From the IMG/VR virus record IMGVR_UViG_3300036851_000232, positions 1-61,446 of that record: DNA of 61,446 nt; one strand, written 5' to 3'. Below, piece after piece: positions 6,831 through 61,446 of this stretch. This stretch comes from a virus. The notes under the pieces are model-generated. The model saw only the letters and a program-made list of their open reading frames with translations, was not told the origin of the DNA and ran no database searches. Every line of letters starts with the position of its first letter. Position 1 is the stretch's first letter. A program made the position numbers and the translations under genes.

Positions 6831-7513
6831 GTCGTCACTCCCTCCGGCCAGTCGACGGCGTTGAGTGCCTTGCGGTGCTCGGCGGGCATCGGCGCGATCG
6901 GCATCCCGAGCCGGTCGCAGCCCATGGCGCACAGGATCAGCGCGTCGGCCTCGTCGTTGCTGACCACCATGAACGCGGTGAAGCGACGCACCGCGGCGGC
7001 GAGCACCTCATCTTTCCCGGCGTTCCCCCGCCCGGTCGCGTACTTGGCGCGGGTCTGCGGTGATGCGACGGCCAGCAGGCAGCCGCGCCGGTCCAACGCT
7101 TCCGTGATGAGCCACCACAGCCCGCCGAGCTGATGTACGGCGTTGCCGCGGCTGCCGAACGACGGCCCTTCGACAACGACCAGCGCGTCAAGGTCGGTGA
7201 AGTCGAGGACGCTGTCGCGGATCCAGCGGAGCCGCTCGTAGCCGACCATGCGGCCGGGTGGCCGGAGGCGGTCGACCCAACCGGTGGAGCAGGCGATCCC
7301 GGTACTGGTGAGACTGAGGTCGAGGCCATACACGCGGGTGGGGGCCCCGCCCCCGGAGTTGCCGCGTCCCCGGGGGGGTGGGTCCGCGGTTGTGCTCGAC
7401 GGGGGCGGGGCTGTCCCGGCCAAGCCCTTAACCGGGACGTGGTGGGCCCGACCGGCGTCAGGGGCGTCACTGGCGGGTAGGGCCGTTTCGGGGAGGGGCA
7501 GCGGGCCGGTCAC
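6827..7513 (-). CDS. RuvC-like Holliday junction resolvase
   Basis: RNase H-fold nuclease: YGLDLSLTSTGIA (first acidic residue, near residue 60), VVVEGPSFG (second) and NDEADALILCAMG (paired acidic residues near the C-terminus), with KDEVLAAAVRRF before the last helix, as in RuvC-type resolvases of actinophages. It would cut branched replication or recombination intermediates before packaging. GTG 7513 is chosen because it overlaps the upstream stop. The first 55 residues are a disordered Pro/Gly-rich extension. Confidence 0.85.
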   Translation of the reverse strand: MTGPLPLPETALPASDAPDAGRAHHVPVKGLAGTAPPPSSTTADPPPRGRGNSGGGAPTRVYGLDLSLTSTGIACSTGWVDRLRPPGRMVGYERLRWIRDSVLDFTDLDALVVVEGPSFGSRGNAVHQLGGLWWLITEALDRRGCLLAVASPQTRAKYATGRGNAGKDEVLAAAVRRFTAFMVVSNDEADALILCAMGCDRLGMPIAPMPAEHRKALNAVDWPEGVTT

Positions 7514-8051: not shown

Positions 8052-8299
8052 CGCAGCCTCCCGGCGGGGCATTGAGTGTCCAATTCGGGGACCCGCAGGA
8101 CAGGGGCGTAGTCGCGGGTGGTGGTGATGAACGCGACGCCGTGGACGCAGATGAGGGAGAGGTTGGGGAACCGGTTGATGTGCTGGTACACCTCGACCTT
8201 GTCCGGTTTCTGCGCGTGGACGCCTTCGATGTCTTGCAGGGTGGACGTGCAGCCGGTGAGCGCCAGCGCAGTCAGCGCAACGAGGATGAGGCGGGTCAC
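8048..8299 (-). CDS. Putative lipoprotein, 83 aa
   Basis: GTG 8299. Hydrophobic signal followed by a lipobox LALTGC at residues about 12-17, then a 65-residue soluble part with two more cysteines. A phage-encoded early lipoprotein could block further infection (superinfection exclusion); that role is inferred from type and context only. Confidence 0.65.
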   Translation of the reverse strand: MTRLILVALTALALTGCTSTLQDIEGVHAQKPDKVEVYQHINRFPNLSLICVHGVAFITTTRDYAPVLRVPELDTQCPAGRLR

Positions 8300-17316: not shown

Positions 17317-18075
17317 CTAGAGGTCGGAGCCGTAGAGCAGCCGGACCCGGGTCGCGTCGGAGACGGCACGCAGCACCTCGAGCCGCTGGCCGTCGTCGGT
17401 CGAGGTGATCCGGGTGGTGTCAAGGACGGCGGCACCGGGCGGCAAGTCAAGCGCGGCAGCTTCGCTAGGGGTGACGGGGCGGGCCCTGACCTGTTCGGTG
17501 TACCGGCCGGGGCGGTACCCGGCGTCGGTGAGCGCTTGGTAGATCCCGCCGGGCAGGAACACCGGCTCGGCGAGCGGTGTGCCGCCCGCGACGCTGGCCG
17601 GTATCCAGGAGGTGGTGAGCTGCGCGGGTTGCCCGTCGGCGTGCATGGTGCGGTACCGGCACACCGCAGGGCCGTCAAGGCGCAGTGCCTTGGTCACGTC
17701 GGCCGGTACCTCGTCAAGCGGTACCACGTCCACGTCATCGAGCCGTACCTGCGGTTCCATGCCGGCGCGGGTGACGGCCACCGACCAGGGCCCGCCCGCG
17801 ATGGCGCCGTTCGCGGCGGCTGCGTGCCGGGAGGTGCGGAGTTCGATGGGCCGGACGTCACGGACGACCGTGGACTGCCGTTCGTTGCCGCCGCGATGCC
17901 GGGCGATGAGGCCTTCCGCTTCGAGTTCCCGGTAGGCGCGGCGGACGGTTTCGCGGGCGGCGCCGTGCTTGCGGGCGAGCTCGGCTTCGCTGGGCATCTG
18001 CCCGCCGGGACCGAGTTGGGCGGCGAGGGCGCGCAGGTTGGCGGCGATCTTGGCCCACGTGGGGGTGTCGGGCAC
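17317..18075 (-). CDS. GntR/HutC-family regulator, KorSA-like
   Basis: N-terminal winged helix (MPSEAELARKHGAARETVRRAYRELE, split across residues about 27-52) and a UTRA-type effector domain (residues 80-245). GTG 18075 has GGAGG nine bases upstream and is preferred to the longer frame. In actinomycete plasmids and integrative elements such as pSAM2 a protein of this kind (KorSA) represses transfer genes. Here it faces the SpdB/Tra genes, and the gap holds GTCTAGAC, an exact HutC-type operator. Effector unknown. Confidence 0.85.
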   Translation of the reverse strand: MPDTPTWAKIAANLRALAAQLGPGGQMPSEAELARKHGAARETVRRAYRELEAEGLIARHRGGNERQSTVVRDVRPIELRTSRHAAAANGAIAGGPWSVAVTRAGMEPQVRLDDVDVVPLDEVPADVTKALRLDGPAVCRYRTMHADGQPAQLTTSWIPASVAGGTPLAEPVFLPGGIYQALTDAGYRPGRYTEQVRARPVTPSEAAALDLPPGAAVLDTTRITSTDDGQRLEVLRAVSDATRVRLLYGSDL

Positions 18076-18149
18076 CGGCTGCGCACCTCCGTTCACCCGT
18101 TCGTCGTGGGGTGCTTGACGATCCCATGCTGACGGGGGACCATCCCATT

Positions 18150-18157
18150 GTCTAGAC
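18150..18157. promoter_or_regulatory. HutC-type operator GTCTAGAC
   Basis: Matches the GTnTAnAC consensus of HutC-subfamily GntR proteins. It sits between the regulator gene and the transfer genes, followed at once by GGTACC (18159-18164) and two adjacent copies at 18195-18206. Likely site of autoregulation and of transfer-gene repression. Confidence 0.6.
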
Positions 18158-18182
18158 CGGTACCGAATGAGGGAGGCCCGCC

Positions 18183-18974
18183 GTGTCTCACGCCGGTACC
18201 GGTACCGCCGAACCCCAGGGCCGGTCGGCGCGCGGGTCAACACCCGATGCGCGGGCGGTGCCCGGTACGCCGGCCGGTCCTGGCCGGTACCGGGACCACG
18301 ACTGGTGGAAGATCACCCTTCGGGCCGTGGCCGGTACCGCCGCCGTCGTGGCCTCGTTCGTGTTCCTGGTTGACCTGGCGCGGGCGACGGGCTGGCCGGG
18401 ATGGACCGCGTACCTGCTGCCACTCTCGCTGGACGCGCTCGCGGCGGCGGCGTGGCGGATCTACGTGACCTGCGGCCGGGACCGGTTCGCCCTGTGGTGC
18501 GGTATCGGTACGACCGGGGCGACGCTGGCGGGGAACGCGGTGTCGCACCTGATCGGTACCGGGCACGTCGCGCCGGGCTGGTTGCTGGTCGCGACGGTGG
18601 GTGCGGTGCCGGCGATGAGCTTGGCGCTGGTGATCCACCTGACCGCGCCACCGAGGCTGCTGGACGCAGGTGCTGCTAGTCCCAGTCCGGCTGGGAGTTC
18701 GCTGGTAGTTGAGCGCGACGGTGCCGGCGGTCGGGGCGGGCCGCGGCCGGGGGGGATCGCCGCAGCGGGTCGGACCGCCGGCACCACAAGCCAGCGTAGC
18801 GACGACCAGCTGCTCGCCGAGATCCGCGCGCTCGGCCTCGAGCAGGTCGGGGCGGACAAGCTGACCGAGCCGCTCGGCATCAACAAGACCAGGGCGGTCA
18901 GGTTGCGGAAGCTGCTCGCCGCCGAGCTCGTACCGGCCAGCGGGAACGGACACACAGATGGGAGCACGCCATGA
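18183..18974 (+). CDS. DUF2637/SpdB-like membrane protein, 263 aa
   Basis: GTG 18183 with GGGAGG upstream. Four hydrophobic helices in residues 45-165 (ITLRAVAGTAAVVASFVFLV, WTAYLLPLSLDALAAAAW, LWCGIGTTGATLAGNAV, WLLVATVGAVPAMSLALVI) match the DUF2637 layout of SpdB proteins, which spread plasmid DNA between compartments of actinomycete mycelium. The C-terminal 60 residues form a winged-helix-like tail (DDQLLAEIRALGLEQVGADK). First gene of the rightward transfer set. Confidence 0.8.
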   Translation: MSHAGTGTAEPQGRSARGSTPDARAVPGTPAGPGRYRDHDWWKITLRAVAGTAAVVASFVFLVDLARATGWPGWTAYLLPLSLDALAAAAWRIYVTCGRDRFALWCGIGTTGATLAGNAVSHLIGTGHVAPGWLLVATVGAVPAMSLALVIHLTAPPRLLDAGAASPSPAGSSLVVERDGAGGRGGPRPGGIAAAGRTAGTTSQRSDDQLLAEIRALGLEQVGADKLTEPLGINKTRAVRLRKLLAAELVPASGNGHTDGSTP

Positions 18975-19174
18975 CCCCCGCGCTTTTCGTGATCATGATG
19001 ATGTTGGGTGCCGCGATCTTCGTGTCGATACGCGCCAAGCAGACGAAGATCTGGGAACTCGTCATGCTCGGCACATTCGGCGCGCTACTCGGCCAAGTAA
19101 CGATCGGCTCCGCGTACCTGTCCGGGCTGAGCAGCGTGTCCACGTCCCTGTTCGCCGCGATCGGCCTCGGCTGA
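18971..19174 (+). CDS. Two-helix small membrane protein, 67 aa
   Basis: ATG 18971 overlaps the stop of the SpdB-like gene. Two transmembrane helices (LFVIMMMLGAAIFVS and LVMLGTFGALLGQVTIG). Lies between SpdB-like and pump genes, as the small spread proteins of actinomycete plasmids do. Confidence 0.7.
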   Translation: MTPALFVIMMMLGAAIFVSIRAKQTKIWELVMLGTFGALLGQVTIGSAYLSGLSSVSTSLFAAIGLG

Positions 19175-19180
19175 CACCCG

Positions 19181-20743
19181 GTGACGGCCGAACTGCAGGA
19201 ACGCGCCGGTACCGTCGCCGTCATGCCACTGCCCGTTGATCCGCCGGGTGAGGACACCGAGCCGGTACCGGCGGGCAGGCTGGGGCTGGTTCGGCGCGGC
19301 TGCGGTTGGTACGCGGGTTGTGTGCGCAACTACTTCCGACGCGGTTGCTCCGAGGCGTACCAGGCGTGGCGGTCCCGGGTGGACCTGTGGGCCGAGGGTA
19401 GCCATCGACTCAGGTCCGACTGCGAGATGTACACGAACGACCGGGTGGAGTGGCGGGAGAGGGAGAAGCAGCGCCGCAAGCAGCTGGAGAGGGAGGACGA
19501 GGCAGCTGTCCGGAAGGCGCTCGAGGAGAAGCAGCCGGTACCGAAGCCGTCGAAGTTCAAGCCGCGGGACCCGTGTCGCGAGCTGCATCGGCAGAGGATC
19601 ATGCGCAAGGCCGTGTCGCCGGTTGCCGGCGTCATCGGCCCTGCCCTAGCGGCGGTCGCCCTGGTATTCGGCGGCCCGGCCCTGATCCAGCAGGCACTGG
19701 TCGCCGCGCACGGTACCGCCCTCGCGACCGGATTCGCGGTTGCTGCTGCGATGGTTCTCGCGGTGGCCGCAGTGACGGTGTTGTCGGTGTTCGGGCAGGT
19801 CCGCAGCGAGCCAGCGGTACCAGTCGATCCCGGCGGGGAGGAGGACGCGACACCGTGGTCCCGGATCACCATCGGGAGGTTCCTCGACGACGGTTCGCCG
19901 ATCGAGATCCCGTTCGGCGACCATGTGCTGATCGCCGGTGCCACCGACGCGGGGAAGTCCAACCTTGTCAACGTTGTCATCTCGAAGATCGCCCCGTTCC
20001 CGGAGGTCGAGCTGTACGGCATCGACTTGAAGGGCGGCGTGGAACTCGGCCCGTGGGAGAACGTCCTCGTGGAGCTGGCCGAGGACGACAAGGCTGCGGT
20101 CGCGTTGCTGCGGCGGCTCAGTGAGGAGATGGACCGCCGGTACCGCACGCTCCGCGCTGCCGGGCGGAAGAACTGGCGGCTGCAGGACGGCCGATTCATG
20201 AAGGTGATCGTGGATGAGTTGGCCGAGTTGCCGAAAGCGGGCGTGGATCTCCTTACCCGGTTGGCGCTGCTCGGCCGCGCCGCCGGGATCTCTTTGGTGT
20301 GCGCCACACAACAGCCCGAGGTGGCGGTGATTCCGCAGCAGGCAAGGGGTCAGCTCCGTACCGTGCTCGGTCTGCGGGTGGAGCGGGCTGAGCAGGCCCG
20401 GCAGGTGTTCGGGGAGCGGGCGACCCGCGAGGGATGGGATCCGGCGTCGCTGGACCCGACGAAGCGGGGATCGCTGCTGGTCCGGTCGAAGTGGTGCACG
20501 GAGCCGCGGCCGGGCCGGTCGACGCGGATCACGGACGGCGAGGTCCGCGCACGTGCGAAGGAGTACGCGAGGACGCCACGCGAATATGTGGCCGAGGATC
20601 GGCCAGCCGGCGAGGGGGAAGAGCGGCGGTGCTTGTACTGCGGGAAGCCGCCCACGGATCCGCGCGCGAAGTACTGCTCGCCCGCGCATCGGAAAGAGCA
20701 TTGGCGACGCTTGCGACGCTTCGGCCCAGATGGGGGTTCCTGA
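19181..20743 (+). CDS. FtsK/TraB-type DNA translocase
   Basis: Hexameric ATPase that pumps double-stranded DNA; actinomycete Tra proteins of this class move plasmids between cells as duplex DNA. Two membrane helices near residues 145-205 (VIGPALAAVALVFGGPAL and AVAAAMVLAVAAVTVLSVFG), a Walker A motif GATDAGKSN near residue 250, Walker B VIVDELAEL near residue 342, and CATQQPEV. The C-terminus has no visible winged-helix gamma domain but a zinc knuckle (CLYCGKPP ... KYCSPAHRKEHW). Six bases follow the previous stop. 520 residues. Confidence 0.88.
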   Translation: MTAELQERAGTVAVMPLPVDPPGEDTEPVPAGRLGLVRRGCGWYAGCVRNYFRRGCSEAYQAWRSRVDLWAEGSHRLRSDCEMYTNDRVEWREREKQRRKQLEREDEAAVRKALEEKQPVPKPSKFKPRDPCRELHRQRIMRKAVSPVAGVIGPALAAVALVFGGPALIQQALVAAHGTALATGFAVAAAMVLAVAAVTVLSVFGQVRSEPAVPVDPGGEEDATPWSRITIGRFLDDGSPIEIPFGDHVLIAGATDAGKSNLVNVVISKIAPFPEVELYGIDLKGGVELGPWENVLVELAEDDKAAVALLRRLSEEMDRRYRTLRAAGRKNWRLQDGRFMKVIVDELAELPKAGVDLLTRLALLGRAAGISLVCATQQPEVAVIPQQARGQLRTVLGLRVERAEQARQVFGERATREGWDPASLDPTKRGSLLVRSKWCTEPRPGRSTRITDGEVRARAKEYARTPREYVAEDRPAGEGEERRCLYCGKPPTDPRAKYCSPAHRKEHWRRLRRFGPDGGS

Positions 20744-20858
20744 GCGTGGGCAGCTTCTCTGATGGAGATGCGTCGCATGCGTCGCACCGCAGGTCAGGGG
20801 GCTTGCGATGCGTCGCATCATGCGTCGCTTCGCTGGAAGCGTCGCATCATGCGTCGCA
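20704..20858. repeat. Cluster of GCGTCGCA-type octamers at the 3' end of the pump gene
   Basis: GCGTCGC starts at 20770, 20779, 20810, 20822, 20839 and 20851 on the + strand (all but one continue with A), and its complement GCGACGC at 20704 and 20713. A 13-base near-palindrome GATGCGTCGCATC stands at 20807-20819. Octamer arrays recognised by TraB pumps (the clt locus) lie just after the pump gene in Streptomyces plasmids, so this is a candidate transfer site. An operator or iteron array is also possible. Confidence 0.75.
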
Positions 20859-20864
20859 TCTGTC

Positions 20865-21305
20865 GTGATTCCGTCGTGGCTGGTCTCAGCAGATGGCATC
20901 CTCGACCGTGTCCTGTCGCCGCTGGATCCGCTGGTAGCCGACCGGTGGCACTGGTTGCCGGTGCTGGCCGTGGCGTGGTGGACGGTGCGCTGGTTCTCGT
21001 ATCGGCCGGGTCTGTGGCTGGCGATGCTCCGCTGCCGGTTGCTGCGCCGGGGTGGTGAGCGGACCGCCCTGTACCGGTGGTTCGACGGGTCGGGGAGGTT
21101 GCGGTATGTGGGGATCTCGAATGATGTGCGGCGGCGCACCGGTCAGCATGCGGCGGGGAAGTGGTGGTGGTTCGAGGTGCGGTCCTGCACCGTGGAGTGG
21201 TTCGACACTCGGGGTGCGGCGTTGGCGGCGGAGCGCGCTGCGATCCGGGCGGAGCGGCCCCGGCATAACGTGGTCCACAACGGGCGACGGAGGGCGGCGG
21301 CGTGA
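20865..21305 (+). CDS. GIY-YIG domain protein with membrane segment, 146 aa
   Basis: Residues 68-140 form a GIY-YIG-type module: TALYRWFDGSGRLRYVGIS, then NDVRRRTGQH and a distal Glu in AAERAAIRAERPRHN. The first tyrosine block reads A-L-Y, as in plasmid variants. Residues 20-45 are hydrophobic (WLPVLAVAWWTVRWF). I start at GTG 20865 after the octamer cluster; the frame is open from ATG 20808, but that would make the repeats code for Arg-Arg runs. Perhaps a nuclease serving DNA transfer. Confidence 0.7.
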   Translation: MIPSWLVSADGILDRVLSPLDPLVADRWHWLPVLAVAWWTVRWFSYRPGLWLAMLRCRLLRRGGERTALYRWFDGSGRLRYVGISNDVRRRTGQHAAGKWWWFEVRSCTVEWFDTRGAALAAERAAIRAERPRHNVVHNGRRRAAA

Positions 21306-58888: not shown

Positions 58889-61446
58889 GTGGGGATTTCC
58901 TCCTGGATGGTGCTGGCGGAGCAGAGGTCGGCGGTGGCGCCGCAGGTGAGGCAGACCTCGCCAGGTGTTTTCGGTGTCCAGGGCGGACACGCGGCCCGTG
59001 CGGGGTTTGCGGGCTTTGCGGGGTCTGTTTCCGGCCCACGCTCATGGCCATTTTCTGTTGATCTTTCCCCTAGTCCGGTTTGTACCGTATTGATCTGGAG
59101 GTCTTCTCGCGCGGTGAGGAAATTAGAACCCGCAAACACCGCAAACCCCGCAGGTTCATATCGCTGGACCCGCCATAACTTGATCTTGTCGTGGGCGTTT
59201 TGCCCGGCCTGCCGGACCGACAGGTCACCCGCCCAGCGGCCATCCCGGTTGGCCAACCAGCGGCCCAACGACTTGCCGATCACCGACAACCCGGCCTTGG
59301 ACCTGGCCGCCTTGTCCGCGAGATCGGCAGGCAGCGCGTCGAGGGGGATCGGGTGCGCGGCCTTCCACTGCCTGACGATTTCGCTGTCGTCGGCGAACCG
59401 TGCCGTGTCGTCGCCGGTGTCGACCTTGGCCAGCAGCTCCTTGACCGACCACGTGCCCTCGCCGAACGCGGCCTGGGCGGCAGCGAGGAAGTTGTGCCAG
59501 TCGTCGTCGTCGGTGCCGACGTCGAGTCGCGTGTCATCGTGATCGAACACCCCGGGCATGCCCGCATGGGCGAGGATGCCGCGGATGGTGCGGACCCAGG
59601 TCGTGTAGCTGTCGCTGCCTGCCTGCCCGCCAAGCGGCTTACCGGCGATGATCCAGGCGCGGGCGAAGGTGAGCAGCGCGGCCAGGAGTTCGCCGCGGCG
59701 GTCCCGGACCCAGGTCTCGAGGTCGGTGATGGCGAAGCCGGTGCGGCGTTCCGGGTTGGGCACACCCGGGTCGATTTCGACGGGGATGGTGCGCCGGGGC
59801 AGGTCACCGCCGATCGCGATGTTGTTCCCGGTGATCATCCACAGCCGGTCGTTGCGGCGGGAGATCATCTCGTTGGAGCCGAGCCGGCGGTCGTCCCATT
59901 GGGGGGAGGTGAGCAGCCCCGACAGGGTGGAGGAGCGGAGCACGCCGGTGACGTTGTCGATGTGGATGACGGGGCCGGTGGTGACGTCGAGGATCGCGCT
60001 GATCTGTTTCCGAAGTTCCGCGTCGTCTTCGGGCATTTCGGCGCGGAACACGCCGCCGTGGATGATGCGGTTGACGGTGGCGAGGAGGGTTTTGCCGCTG
60101 CCGGGTTGCGGCGCGGTGATCGCGGTGAGCTTGTACGGCGGTGGTGTGATCTGGCGGAGCAGGGGGGTGAGCAGTGCCCCGAGGTAGTTCGCCTTGTGGT
60201 GGTCGGTGACGAACGGGAACCCGGCGACCATCTCGTGTATCAGCGCGACCGCTGCGCCGAGTTGCGTCGTGGTGGGTGTGTCGGGGACGGGGGGCATGTC
60301 GAAGCCGGGTTCGGGGAGGTGGAGGAGGCCGCTGGCCTGGTCGTAGCCGGGGGCGGTGAGCATGGTGCCGTCGCGTCGCAGGATCGGGGTGTGGGTGACG
60401 CCGCGTAGCCTGCGAAGGTTGGGCAGCATGTCGGGCACGTCTACCGGGATTTTCGCGGCGGCGGCGGGGAATGTGGCGTGCACCTTGACGGGGTCGTCTT
60501 TCGGGCCGGCGCGCCGATAGCACCAGTACATGTAGGTCATCCTTGCGGCGAGCGCGGAGGCGGTGACGGGGCGGACCTGCGCGGGCCCGTCGGTGTCGTC
60601 GTCGTCGCCGGTGAGGGGGACGTACCCGTCTTCGTTCTCCCGCGGGGTGTGGACGATGTCTCCGGTGCGGTTGAACATGCCGGCGAGCCGGCCGGTGCCG
60701 GTGTTGTCGCGGAGCCAGTCGGCGGCGTCGGCGGGGAGAGTGACGTCGAACTCCGGTCGTGTCATCTCGGTGTCTGGCTGATCGGGGGCCGGTTCGTCAG
60801 TGTCGGGGCCGGCGAGTTCGCACAGGTCGCTGTCGGGCTTGGGTGCTGGCCCGCCGTAGCCCTGCCGTCGAAGTTCTTTGGCGGCGGTGCTGTAGTTCCC
60901 GCCGTGTTCGAGGTGGGTGTGTGCGGCGAACTTCGAGTAGGGCTTCTCGGTGTCGAAGATCGTGGAGGTGGAGAAAACGTAGAGCCGGTCCGCGCCGTCG
61001 GCGGAGGTGCCGGTGGTGGCGGAGATGACGGTGCCGGTCTTGCCGGGGCGGCACCAGCCGAGGCCGCCGCCGGTGAGGCGGCGGGTGATGCGCCAGCCGT
61101 GGGGTTCGAGGATGTCGGTCCAGGTGGCTTTCTGGTTGTAGTCGTCGCCGGGCCGGGCTCCTGTCCCGTCATAGGTCGCCGTGTTCTGGTTGCCCCATGT
61201 TTCTGCTGGCAAAGTTTCGGCGGGCATCTGGTCGAGCAGCGTGGCGACGGCGTGCAGGGCGTCGCGTTCGTCTTCCGAAATGAGGGGGATGGTGGCGGGG
61301 TCACCGACGAGGGCGGTCCAGGCTTTGCTGGAGGGGTGGGTGCGGCCGGCGGAGGGGGCGGTGATGACGTAGCCGCCTTCGCCGCGGGTTTCGATAAGGG
61401 TGTAGATCTTCTGGTCGGGGTTGGTCGCGAGTTCAGCTGTGGTGGC
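58885..61446 (-). CDS. Prim-Pol/helicase, main part (starts at the left end of the window)
   Basis: Continues the frame that opens at 554; residues 185-987 lie at 61294-58885 in the circle. After the Prim-Pol domain comes a zinc-like and linker region, then a superfamily-3-type/AAA helicase core: Walker A PQPGSGKTLLATV near residue 583, Walker B-like GPVIHIDNVTG, sensor-type LWMITGNNIAIGGDLPRRTI with arginine finger, and a C-terminal lid. The last 70 residues end in CPPW ... CLTCGATADLC. It would prime and unwind DNA as a self-contained initiator. A separate polymerase gene is absent. Confidence 0.85.
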   Translation of the reverse strand, partial: ATTAELATNPDQKIYTLIETRGEGGYVITAPSAGRTHPSSKAWTALVGDPATIPLISEDERDALHAVATLLDQMPAETLPAETWGNQNTATYDGTGARPGDDYNQKATWTDILEPHGWRITRRLTGGGLGWCRPGKTGTVISATTGTSADGADRLYVFSTSTIFDTEKPYSKFAAHTHLEHGGNYSTAAKELRRQGYGGPAPKPDSDLCELAGPDTDEPAPDQPDTEMTRPEFDVTLPADAADWLRDNTGTGRLAGMFNRTGDIVHTPRENEDGYVPLTGDDDDTDGPAQVRPVTASALAARMTYMYWCYRRAGPKDDPVKVHATFPAAAAKIPVDVPDMLPNLRRLRGVTHTPILRRDGTMLTAPGYDQASGLLHLPEPGFDMPPVPDTPTTTQLGAAVALIHEMVAGFPFVTDHHKANYLGALLTPLLRQITPPPYKLTAITAPQPGSGKTLLATVNRIIHGGVFRAEMPEDDAELRKQISAILDVTTGPVIHIDNVTGVLRSSTLSGLLTSPQWDDRRLGSNEMISRRNDRLWMITGNNIAIGGDLPRRTIPVEIDPGVPNPERRTGFAITDLETWVRDRRGELLAALLTFARAWIIAGKPLGGQAGSDSYTTWVRTIRGILAHAGMPGVFDHDDTRLDVGTDDDDWHNFLAAAQAAFGEGTWSVKELLAKVDTGDDTARFADDSEIVRQWKAAHPIPLDALPADLADKAARSKAGLSVIGKSLGRWLANRDGRWAGDLSVRQAGQNAHDKIKLWRVQRYEPAGFAVFAGSNFLTAREDLQINTVQTGLGERSTENGHERGPETDPAKPANPARAACPPWTPKTPGEVCLTCGATADLCSASTIQEEIPT
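61295..61446. repeat. Terminal direct repeat, right copy (circular overlap)
   Basis: Right-hand copy of the 152-base repeat. The only difference changes a tryptophan codon here to an arginine codon in the left copy (S-K-A-W against S-K-A-R). The right copy is more likely correct because it lies inside the contig read depth, but that is a guess. Confidence 0.9.

Follow-up and report, generated by a model that had tools for sequence, protein, structure and literature searches.

Introduction

TraB-type pumps move Streptomyces plasmids between cells. TraB of pSVH1 is described as reading an octamer by its C-terminal winged helix (Vogelmann et al. 2011, cited in PMC3583192). In pWTY27 the clt locus covers the final 16 bp of tra and about 159 bp beyond it, and consists of 7-bp direct repeats and inverted repeats that are bound by the pump (PMC3583192). 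The named plasmid-phage pZL12 requires its tra gene and the neighbouring genes for conjugal transfer, as cited in PMC3583192. Together with PMC4170104 and PMC12857230, this is the literature on which a clt reading can draw.

Here we compare with these systems a repeat array at the 3' end of a pump gene in a stretch of 61,446 nucleotides (the window), the whole of IMG/VR virus record IMGVR_UViG_3300036851_000232. We judge it likely that the array is a clt-type cis site at which the neighbouring FtsK/TraB-like pump docks, carried in a cassette that was acquired by a circular actinobacterial phage.

The carrier genome

The two ends of the record (1-152 and 61295-61446) overlap over 152 bp with one mismatch. 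This overlap falls inside a primase-polymerase gene that continues across the record ends, indicating a closed circle of about 61.3 kb. The record is classed as linear, yet by its end overlap it is a complete circular genome. Genes for a terminase, portal, capsid protease, tape measure and endolysin are present, and the genome is that of a complete circular actinobacterial phage. No integrase was found among the ORFs of the window that were scanned (the larger ORFs and part of the small ones).

Phages related to this one by portal (55%), tape measure (43%) or primase (54%) carried no TraB-like gene in their records, some of which may be fragments. The cassette thus appears to be an acquisition and no native part of the phage machinery. 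For the same reason, and with the same proviso on fragmentary records, a core phage function for the pump was considered and rejected.

The transfer cassette

The cassette spans 17.3-21.3 kb, with the regulator gene divergent from the rest:

17317..18243, minus strand: GntR-UTRA regulator in a KorSA-like position (Pfam UTRA 1.7e-17, GntR 4e-11)
18183..18974, plus strand: DUF2637 membrane protein at the position of spdB (Pfam DUF2637 8.6e-5)
18971..19174, plus strand: small hydrophobic protein of 67 aa (from codon-position GC and sequence)
19181..20743, plus strand: FtsK/SpoIIIE-type dsDNA pump, TraB-like, 520 aa (Pfam FtsK_SpoIIIE, PF01580, 2.6e-19)
20630..20725, plus strand: C-terminal tail of the pump, a probable zinc finger CLYCGKPPTDPRAKYCSPAHRKEH followed by the basic helix WRRLRRFG (from sequence)
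20808..21305, plus strand: GIY-YIG nuclease-like protein with a hydrophobic N-terminus and an uncertain start codon (Pfam GIY-YIG 5.5e-7; PHROG endonuclease 1.3e-17)

The coordinates of the regulator use its first possible start, and the true start is probably nearer 18120. Genes for DUF2637 proteins also adjoin traB in the plasmids L005, L224, L226, L280, L281 and L283.

The predicted fold of the pump matched the E. coli FtsK motor (2ius) in a fold search (E 1.4e-16). Its top NCBIfam model was plasmid_TraB (NF041214), at 53.7 bits against a cutoff of 800; the pump is TraB-like and lies outside the TraB equivalog NF041214. Its C-terminus, CLYCGKPPTDPRAKYCSPAHRKEHWRRLRRFG, probably forms a zinc finger and includes a basic helix. 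This tail gave weak, sub-cutoff matches to zf-MYND and Zn_ribbon_3, and was modelled by AlphaFold as short strands and a helix at 501-513 with pLDDT of about 40-58. The tail occupies the position of the winged helix in related pumps, and no winged helix was predicted in the AlphaFold model of the window's pump. A zinc-finger tail of this kind was seen in none of the pumps (30-40% identity) from nine named genomes and from samples of the groups (order, family or class) to which G008, G010, G011 and G012 belong.

Direct searches returned no close relatives of the pump from viral contigs or genome contigs and none of the DUF2637 protein from viral contigs, and no homologues of the GIY-YIG protein were found in phages. 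The related pumps discussed below were reached only through alignment-based searches.

The cassette also holds 16 of the record's 24 GGTACC sites within 2.6 kb (17514-20139), mostly as CGGTACCG. Their density in the other fetched loci was at most about 1 per kb. This cluster may be a trace left by a former host or consist of sites for another protein.

The repeat array

A reading of this DNA from its sequence alone had reported six direct copies of GCGTCGC(A) and two inverted copies in the last codons of the pump gene, and all eight were located. The plus-strand copies of GCGTCGC begin at 20770, 20779, 20810, 20822, 20839 and 20851, all 3' of the pump stop at 20743 (20770-20857); the next base is A in five of the six and T after the copy at 20822. 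The minus-strand copies, at 20704 and 20713, lie within the last codons of the pump gene, and both are codons of its basic tail helix. The eight copies span 20704-20857, about 154-155 bp. They share a longer word, AWGCGTCGC (8/8), followed by A in 6/8, and are laid out as follows:

20704..20712, minus strand: repeat unit 1, AAGCGTCGC, in pump codons
20713..20721, minus strand: repeat unit 2, AAGCGTCGC, in pump codons
20768..20776, plus strand: repeat unit 3, ATGCGTCGC
20777..20785, plus strand: repeat unit 4, ATGCGTCGC
20808..20816, plus strand: repeat unit 5, ATGCGTCGC, overlapping the start codon of the next frame
20820..20828, plus strand: repeat unit 6, ATGCGTCGC
20837..20845, plus strand: repeat unit 7, AAGCGTCGC
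20849..20857, plus strand: repeat unit 8, ATGCGTCGC

The array does straddle the start of the next frame, as had been claimed: the ATG at 20808 lies inside a unit and the array extends into that frame.

When all 7-mers were compared, this array was the densest 7-mer cluster of the 61 kb record. In 150 Markov simulations of genomes with the record's length and dinucleotide make-up, the best 7-mer cluster per genome held 3-6 copies, against eight here. GCGTCGC is not enriched across the window (48 observed, 60 expected), so it is the clustering alone that is unusual. The longer word AWGCGTCGC occurs nine times in the window, eight of them in the array (2.9 expected window-wide), and ATGCGTCGCAT is confined to the array.

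The unit is a near-palindrome of 10-13 bp, the best copies being the 13-bp GATGCGTCGCATC, and its core is palindromic save for the centre base. The label of a copy as inverted thus depends solely on that base and on the 5' A. The palindromic form WWGCGNCGCWW occurs six times in the 61 kb, always within 20711-20859 (1.2 expected), and none of 100 shuffles reached six. Centre-to-centre spacings of the units are 9, 57, 9, 31, 12, 17 and 12, too uneven for a regular tandem repeat. The repeats in 20807-20860 form a strong predicted hairpin (z -4.1) with mismatches at the palindrome centres only. The sps palindrome of SpdA was tried as a match for the unit and rejected, its sequence, CGTCACGTGACG, being different (PMC4170104).

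Comparison with described clt loci

The window's post-stop copies resemble the pSVH1 clt, where repeats lie directly 3' of the traB stop. A GntR gene, SpdB2 and small proteins precede traB there, in an order similar to that of the window's cassette, and CTGACCTGCG adjoins the array. The two loci differ in that the pSVH1 unit is an asymmetric octamer (GACCCGGA) whilst the window's is more palindromic, and in that CTGACCTG follows the pSVH1 array on the traB strand but lies inside the window's array and is inverted. pSVH1 is moreover a plasmid and the window a phage. The pWTY27 clt overlaps the end of its tra gene and combines direct and inverted repeats, as the window's array does. It differs in its words (TGACACC and CCCGCCC), in belonging to a theta plasmid and in that binding and transfer were shown there experimentally (PMC3583192). 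In pIJ101 the korB-side clt region has CTGACCTGCG by an inverted repeat, as matched to the published description (PMC3583192), but this clt lies away from the 3' end of tra, an exception to the position rule, and has other repeats.

The array had been said to have both the place and the unit length of a Streptomyces clt. The place holds, since both pSVH1 and pWTY27 have their repeats at the pump's 3' end; the octamer does not, the unit being a near-palindrome of 10-13 bp. Taken together, the window has a cluster of a short (7-9 bp) word at the 3' end of an FtsK/TraB-like gene, spd-like and GntR neighbours, and a CTGACCTG-type element, the last being a regularity of the present comparison and not a published criterion. 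In pSVH1, however, the word is read by the pump's C-terminal winged helix, and here the tail is a probable zinc finger. The window's site is thus a clt-like variant and not a standard member of the pSVH1 type.

Arrays and recognition helices of related pumps

Comparison of array position across related modules, a check proposed in the sequence-only reading, gave the same location 3' of the pump with words specific to each element. As a positive control, our script was run on pSVH1 and retrieved the TraB word known from the literature, GACCCGGA, directly 3' of the traB stop. An array follows the pump in most related phages and integrated elements, covering five actinobacterial groups and dozens of pumps, and its word is element-specific. 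In the integrated and phage-borne elements (L030-L278) of Frankia, Micromonosporaceae, Pseudonocardiales and IMG/VR phages the layout is that of the window: an FtsK-type pump, then an array whose repeats are specific to the element and built around a short conserved core. Their pumps differ in having a winged-helix end that covaries with the word, and share 30-40% identity with the window's pump over the motor.

In phages (L030, L034, L035, L036, L045, L065 and L174) the pump-adjacent words include CGTCCAG, ACCGTCCA and TGTCCGG. Frankia arrays use GTGTGCA, those of Longispora and Pseudonocardiales CGTCCGCG, and other actinobacteria GTTCCGC, GTTCCAC and CGTCTC; plasmid arrays use CCTGGAC and GTGTCCC. 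In the Actinoplanes family sample (Micromonosporaceae), CGTCCG was found 3' of 29 of 30 pumps. Arrays were absent after six pumps lacking a comparable C-terminal reader (L141, L145, L217, L218, L219 and L246) and after the Gilgamesh-type phage pumps examined.

Three of these loci carry further repeats. In L035 (6439-6783) and L045 (6435-6760) a second, far larger array of CGGGACA/TGTCCCG is found past the first array, 200-550 bp 3' of the pump gene; its copies number in the dozens and are often present as CGGGACATGTCCCG. In L136 a run of ACCAGCGGAC repeats, partly N-masked, lies past the Frankia array (7040-7240).

The C-terminus of the related pumps is a winged helix, predicted with pLDDT of 85-92; a fold search with it gave weak matches only, the best of them to winged-helix proteins. 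The third-helix residue before an invariant Trp tracked one base of the word among these related sequences, T occurring with TCCG in 38/38 and S with TCCA in 6/6, most of the T cases coming from one family. The same rule fits L036 (T, TGTCCGG) and L035, L044 and L065 (S, GTCCA). One residue further upstream a second base is tracked, again among related sequences: K occurred with TTCC in 4/4 and R or S with GTCC in 43/46. The contrast between T and S is seen separately in the phage, Pseudonocardiales-like and RRK groups. Such covariation suggests that the pumps of these relatives probably read their own arrays, and it agrees with the role of helix alpha-3 of pSVH1 TraB as cited in PMC3583192. 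As the window's pump is without a winged helix, the argument does not transfer to it directly.

A shared element beside the arrays

One further feature lies within the array, between its first two pairs of repeats (units 1-4) and its last four repeats (units 5-8):

20788..20797, minus strand: CTGACCTGCG element containing the 8-mer CTGACCTG (20790-20797), inverted relative to that of the relatives

CTGACCTG is the 8-mer most widely common to the post-pump regions, and adjoins the arrays in pSVH1, pSG5, pFP11 and similar plasmids and in four phages. Its significance is moderate: it occurs in 6 of 11 groups, a level equalled by 1/300 shuffled sets and 5/300 random-region sets. Among plasmids outside the discovery set it is exact in L279, whose pump has 33% identity to that of pSVH1, and in L283; the variant GACCTGCA stands in the same place in L280 and L281, and L282 has neither an array nor CTGACCTG. 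The chance of CTGACCTG landing in the window's array is about 1%. The complement of the window's element contains an overlapping AGGGGG, a plausible ribosome-binding site for the ATG at 20808, which provides a second reason for the CTGACCTGCG sequence there.

In pIJ101 (L222), CTGACCTGCG adjoins korB beside an inverted repeat, its position matched to the published description of clt and not to coordinates. A second CTGACCTGCG in this plasmid, at 8120, adjoins the sps palindrome upstream of spdA2, and the element may thus serve beyond clt. No report of CTGACCTG as a clt element was found in the literature searched.

The proposal of a candidate clt is strengthened by these comparisons: the pSVH1 clt and most related pumps carry arrays at the same place, the word covaries with the reading helix in relatives and CTGACCTG is present.

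Alternative explanations

The palindromic units could instead form an operator array, whose bound repressor would control expression of the GIY-YIG gene or transcriptional read-through out of the pump gene. The GntR protein, a phage HTH protein or an autoregulating zinc-finger tail or GIY-YIG protein are candidates for this repressor. The spacings of 9-17 bp and the overlap with the start region of the next frame are in line with such a site, and a zinc-finger-like protein of Streptomyces plasmids, SpdA2, binds the sps palindrome at its own gene (PMC4170104). However, no unit lies by the GntR gene or other promoter regions, ATGCGTCGCAT being found in the array only, two units fall within pump codons, and eight copies are more than ordinary operators have. 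Arrays of the relatives are moreover present whatever the next gene, and their word tracks the pump. We thus consider an operator array unlikely.

Iterons, which the sequence-only reading had offered as its alternative, fare worse, as the primase-polymerase gene that spans the record ends lies about 20 kb from the array. Origins and centromeres do typically carry repeat arrays, and a circular genome with no integrase among the larger ORFs scanned makes plasmid-like maintenance plausible. A replication origin or partition centromere of an extrachromosomal phage-plasmid is nevertheless improbable here, given that no ParA- or ParB-like family match was obtained among the scanned proteins (with small ORFs covered in part), that the array is G+C-rich and that arrays of the relatives follow the pump and not a replication gene.

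A phage attachment site, with its core surrounded by arm-type repeats, is very improbable: the central block flanked by repeats is like some attP and a serine recombinase lies shortly downstream in the relative L139, but no integrase adjoins the array or was found among the window's scanned ORFs (small ORFs covered in part), the next gene is not an integrase in many relatives and seems to be an excisionase-like HTH gene in L242, L244 and L247, and the words track the pump's C-terminal helix and not a recombinase. An RNA hairpin in the pump-GIY-YIG transcript, acting as a terminator or processed structure with the repeats as its by-product, has the long fold at 20807-20860 (z -4.1) in its favour but is just as hard to credit, as the mismatches fall exactly at the palindrome centre bases, which is where they should fall were the stem a simple consequence of the repeated palindromes, there is no T-run, no terminator is predicted at the array, and the in-gene units and those at 20768-20785 lie outside the stem.

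Proposed docking and transfer

For the clt-type docking site that we favour, binding of the window's pump to the array is suggested by where the array lies, by the relatives and by the presence of the shared element. The zinc-finger tail as the reader of the array is a guess, made from its C-terminal position, which matches that of the relatives' winged helix. The repeats of AWGCGTCGCA would be where pump subunits bind and come together as a hexamer. This hexamer would then drive the double-stranded circle across a membrane, whether into an adjacent cell or hypha or from one compartment of a mycelium to another; transfer between cells is suggested by the family to which the pump belongs. The DUF2637 protein and the small membrane proteins of the cassette may assist transfer, the GntR protein may control the cassette, and CTGACCTGCG in the array could act as an invariant accessory element serving a factor that is shared or supplied by the host.

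A TraB-clt cassette in a complete phage genome means that one element may spread both as a virion and by conjugation. That this virion-forming phage also moves from cell to cell by TraB-type conjugation, its pump having had the winged helix replaced by a zinc finger and a matching palindromic word having evolved, is a possibility that we put forward tentatively and hold to be on the doubtful side.

Two regularities emerge from the comparison: CTGACCTG adjoins clt arrays in plasmids and phages that are otherwise unrelated to one another, and a simple code appears to link recognition helix to docking word (T: TCCG, S: TCCA, K: TTCC). No description of either was found in the literature searched. 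Together they may allow clt sites throughout the Actinobacteria to be predicted from sequence. Such prediction bears on the movement of chromosomal genes, since chromosomal clt-like sites have been proposed as starts of transfer.

Among the plasmids compared, pPaSha2 of Pseudonocardia alni (L227), which has no array after its pump, carries FtsK, DUF2637, integrase and holin genes and is possibly another mix of phage and plasmid.
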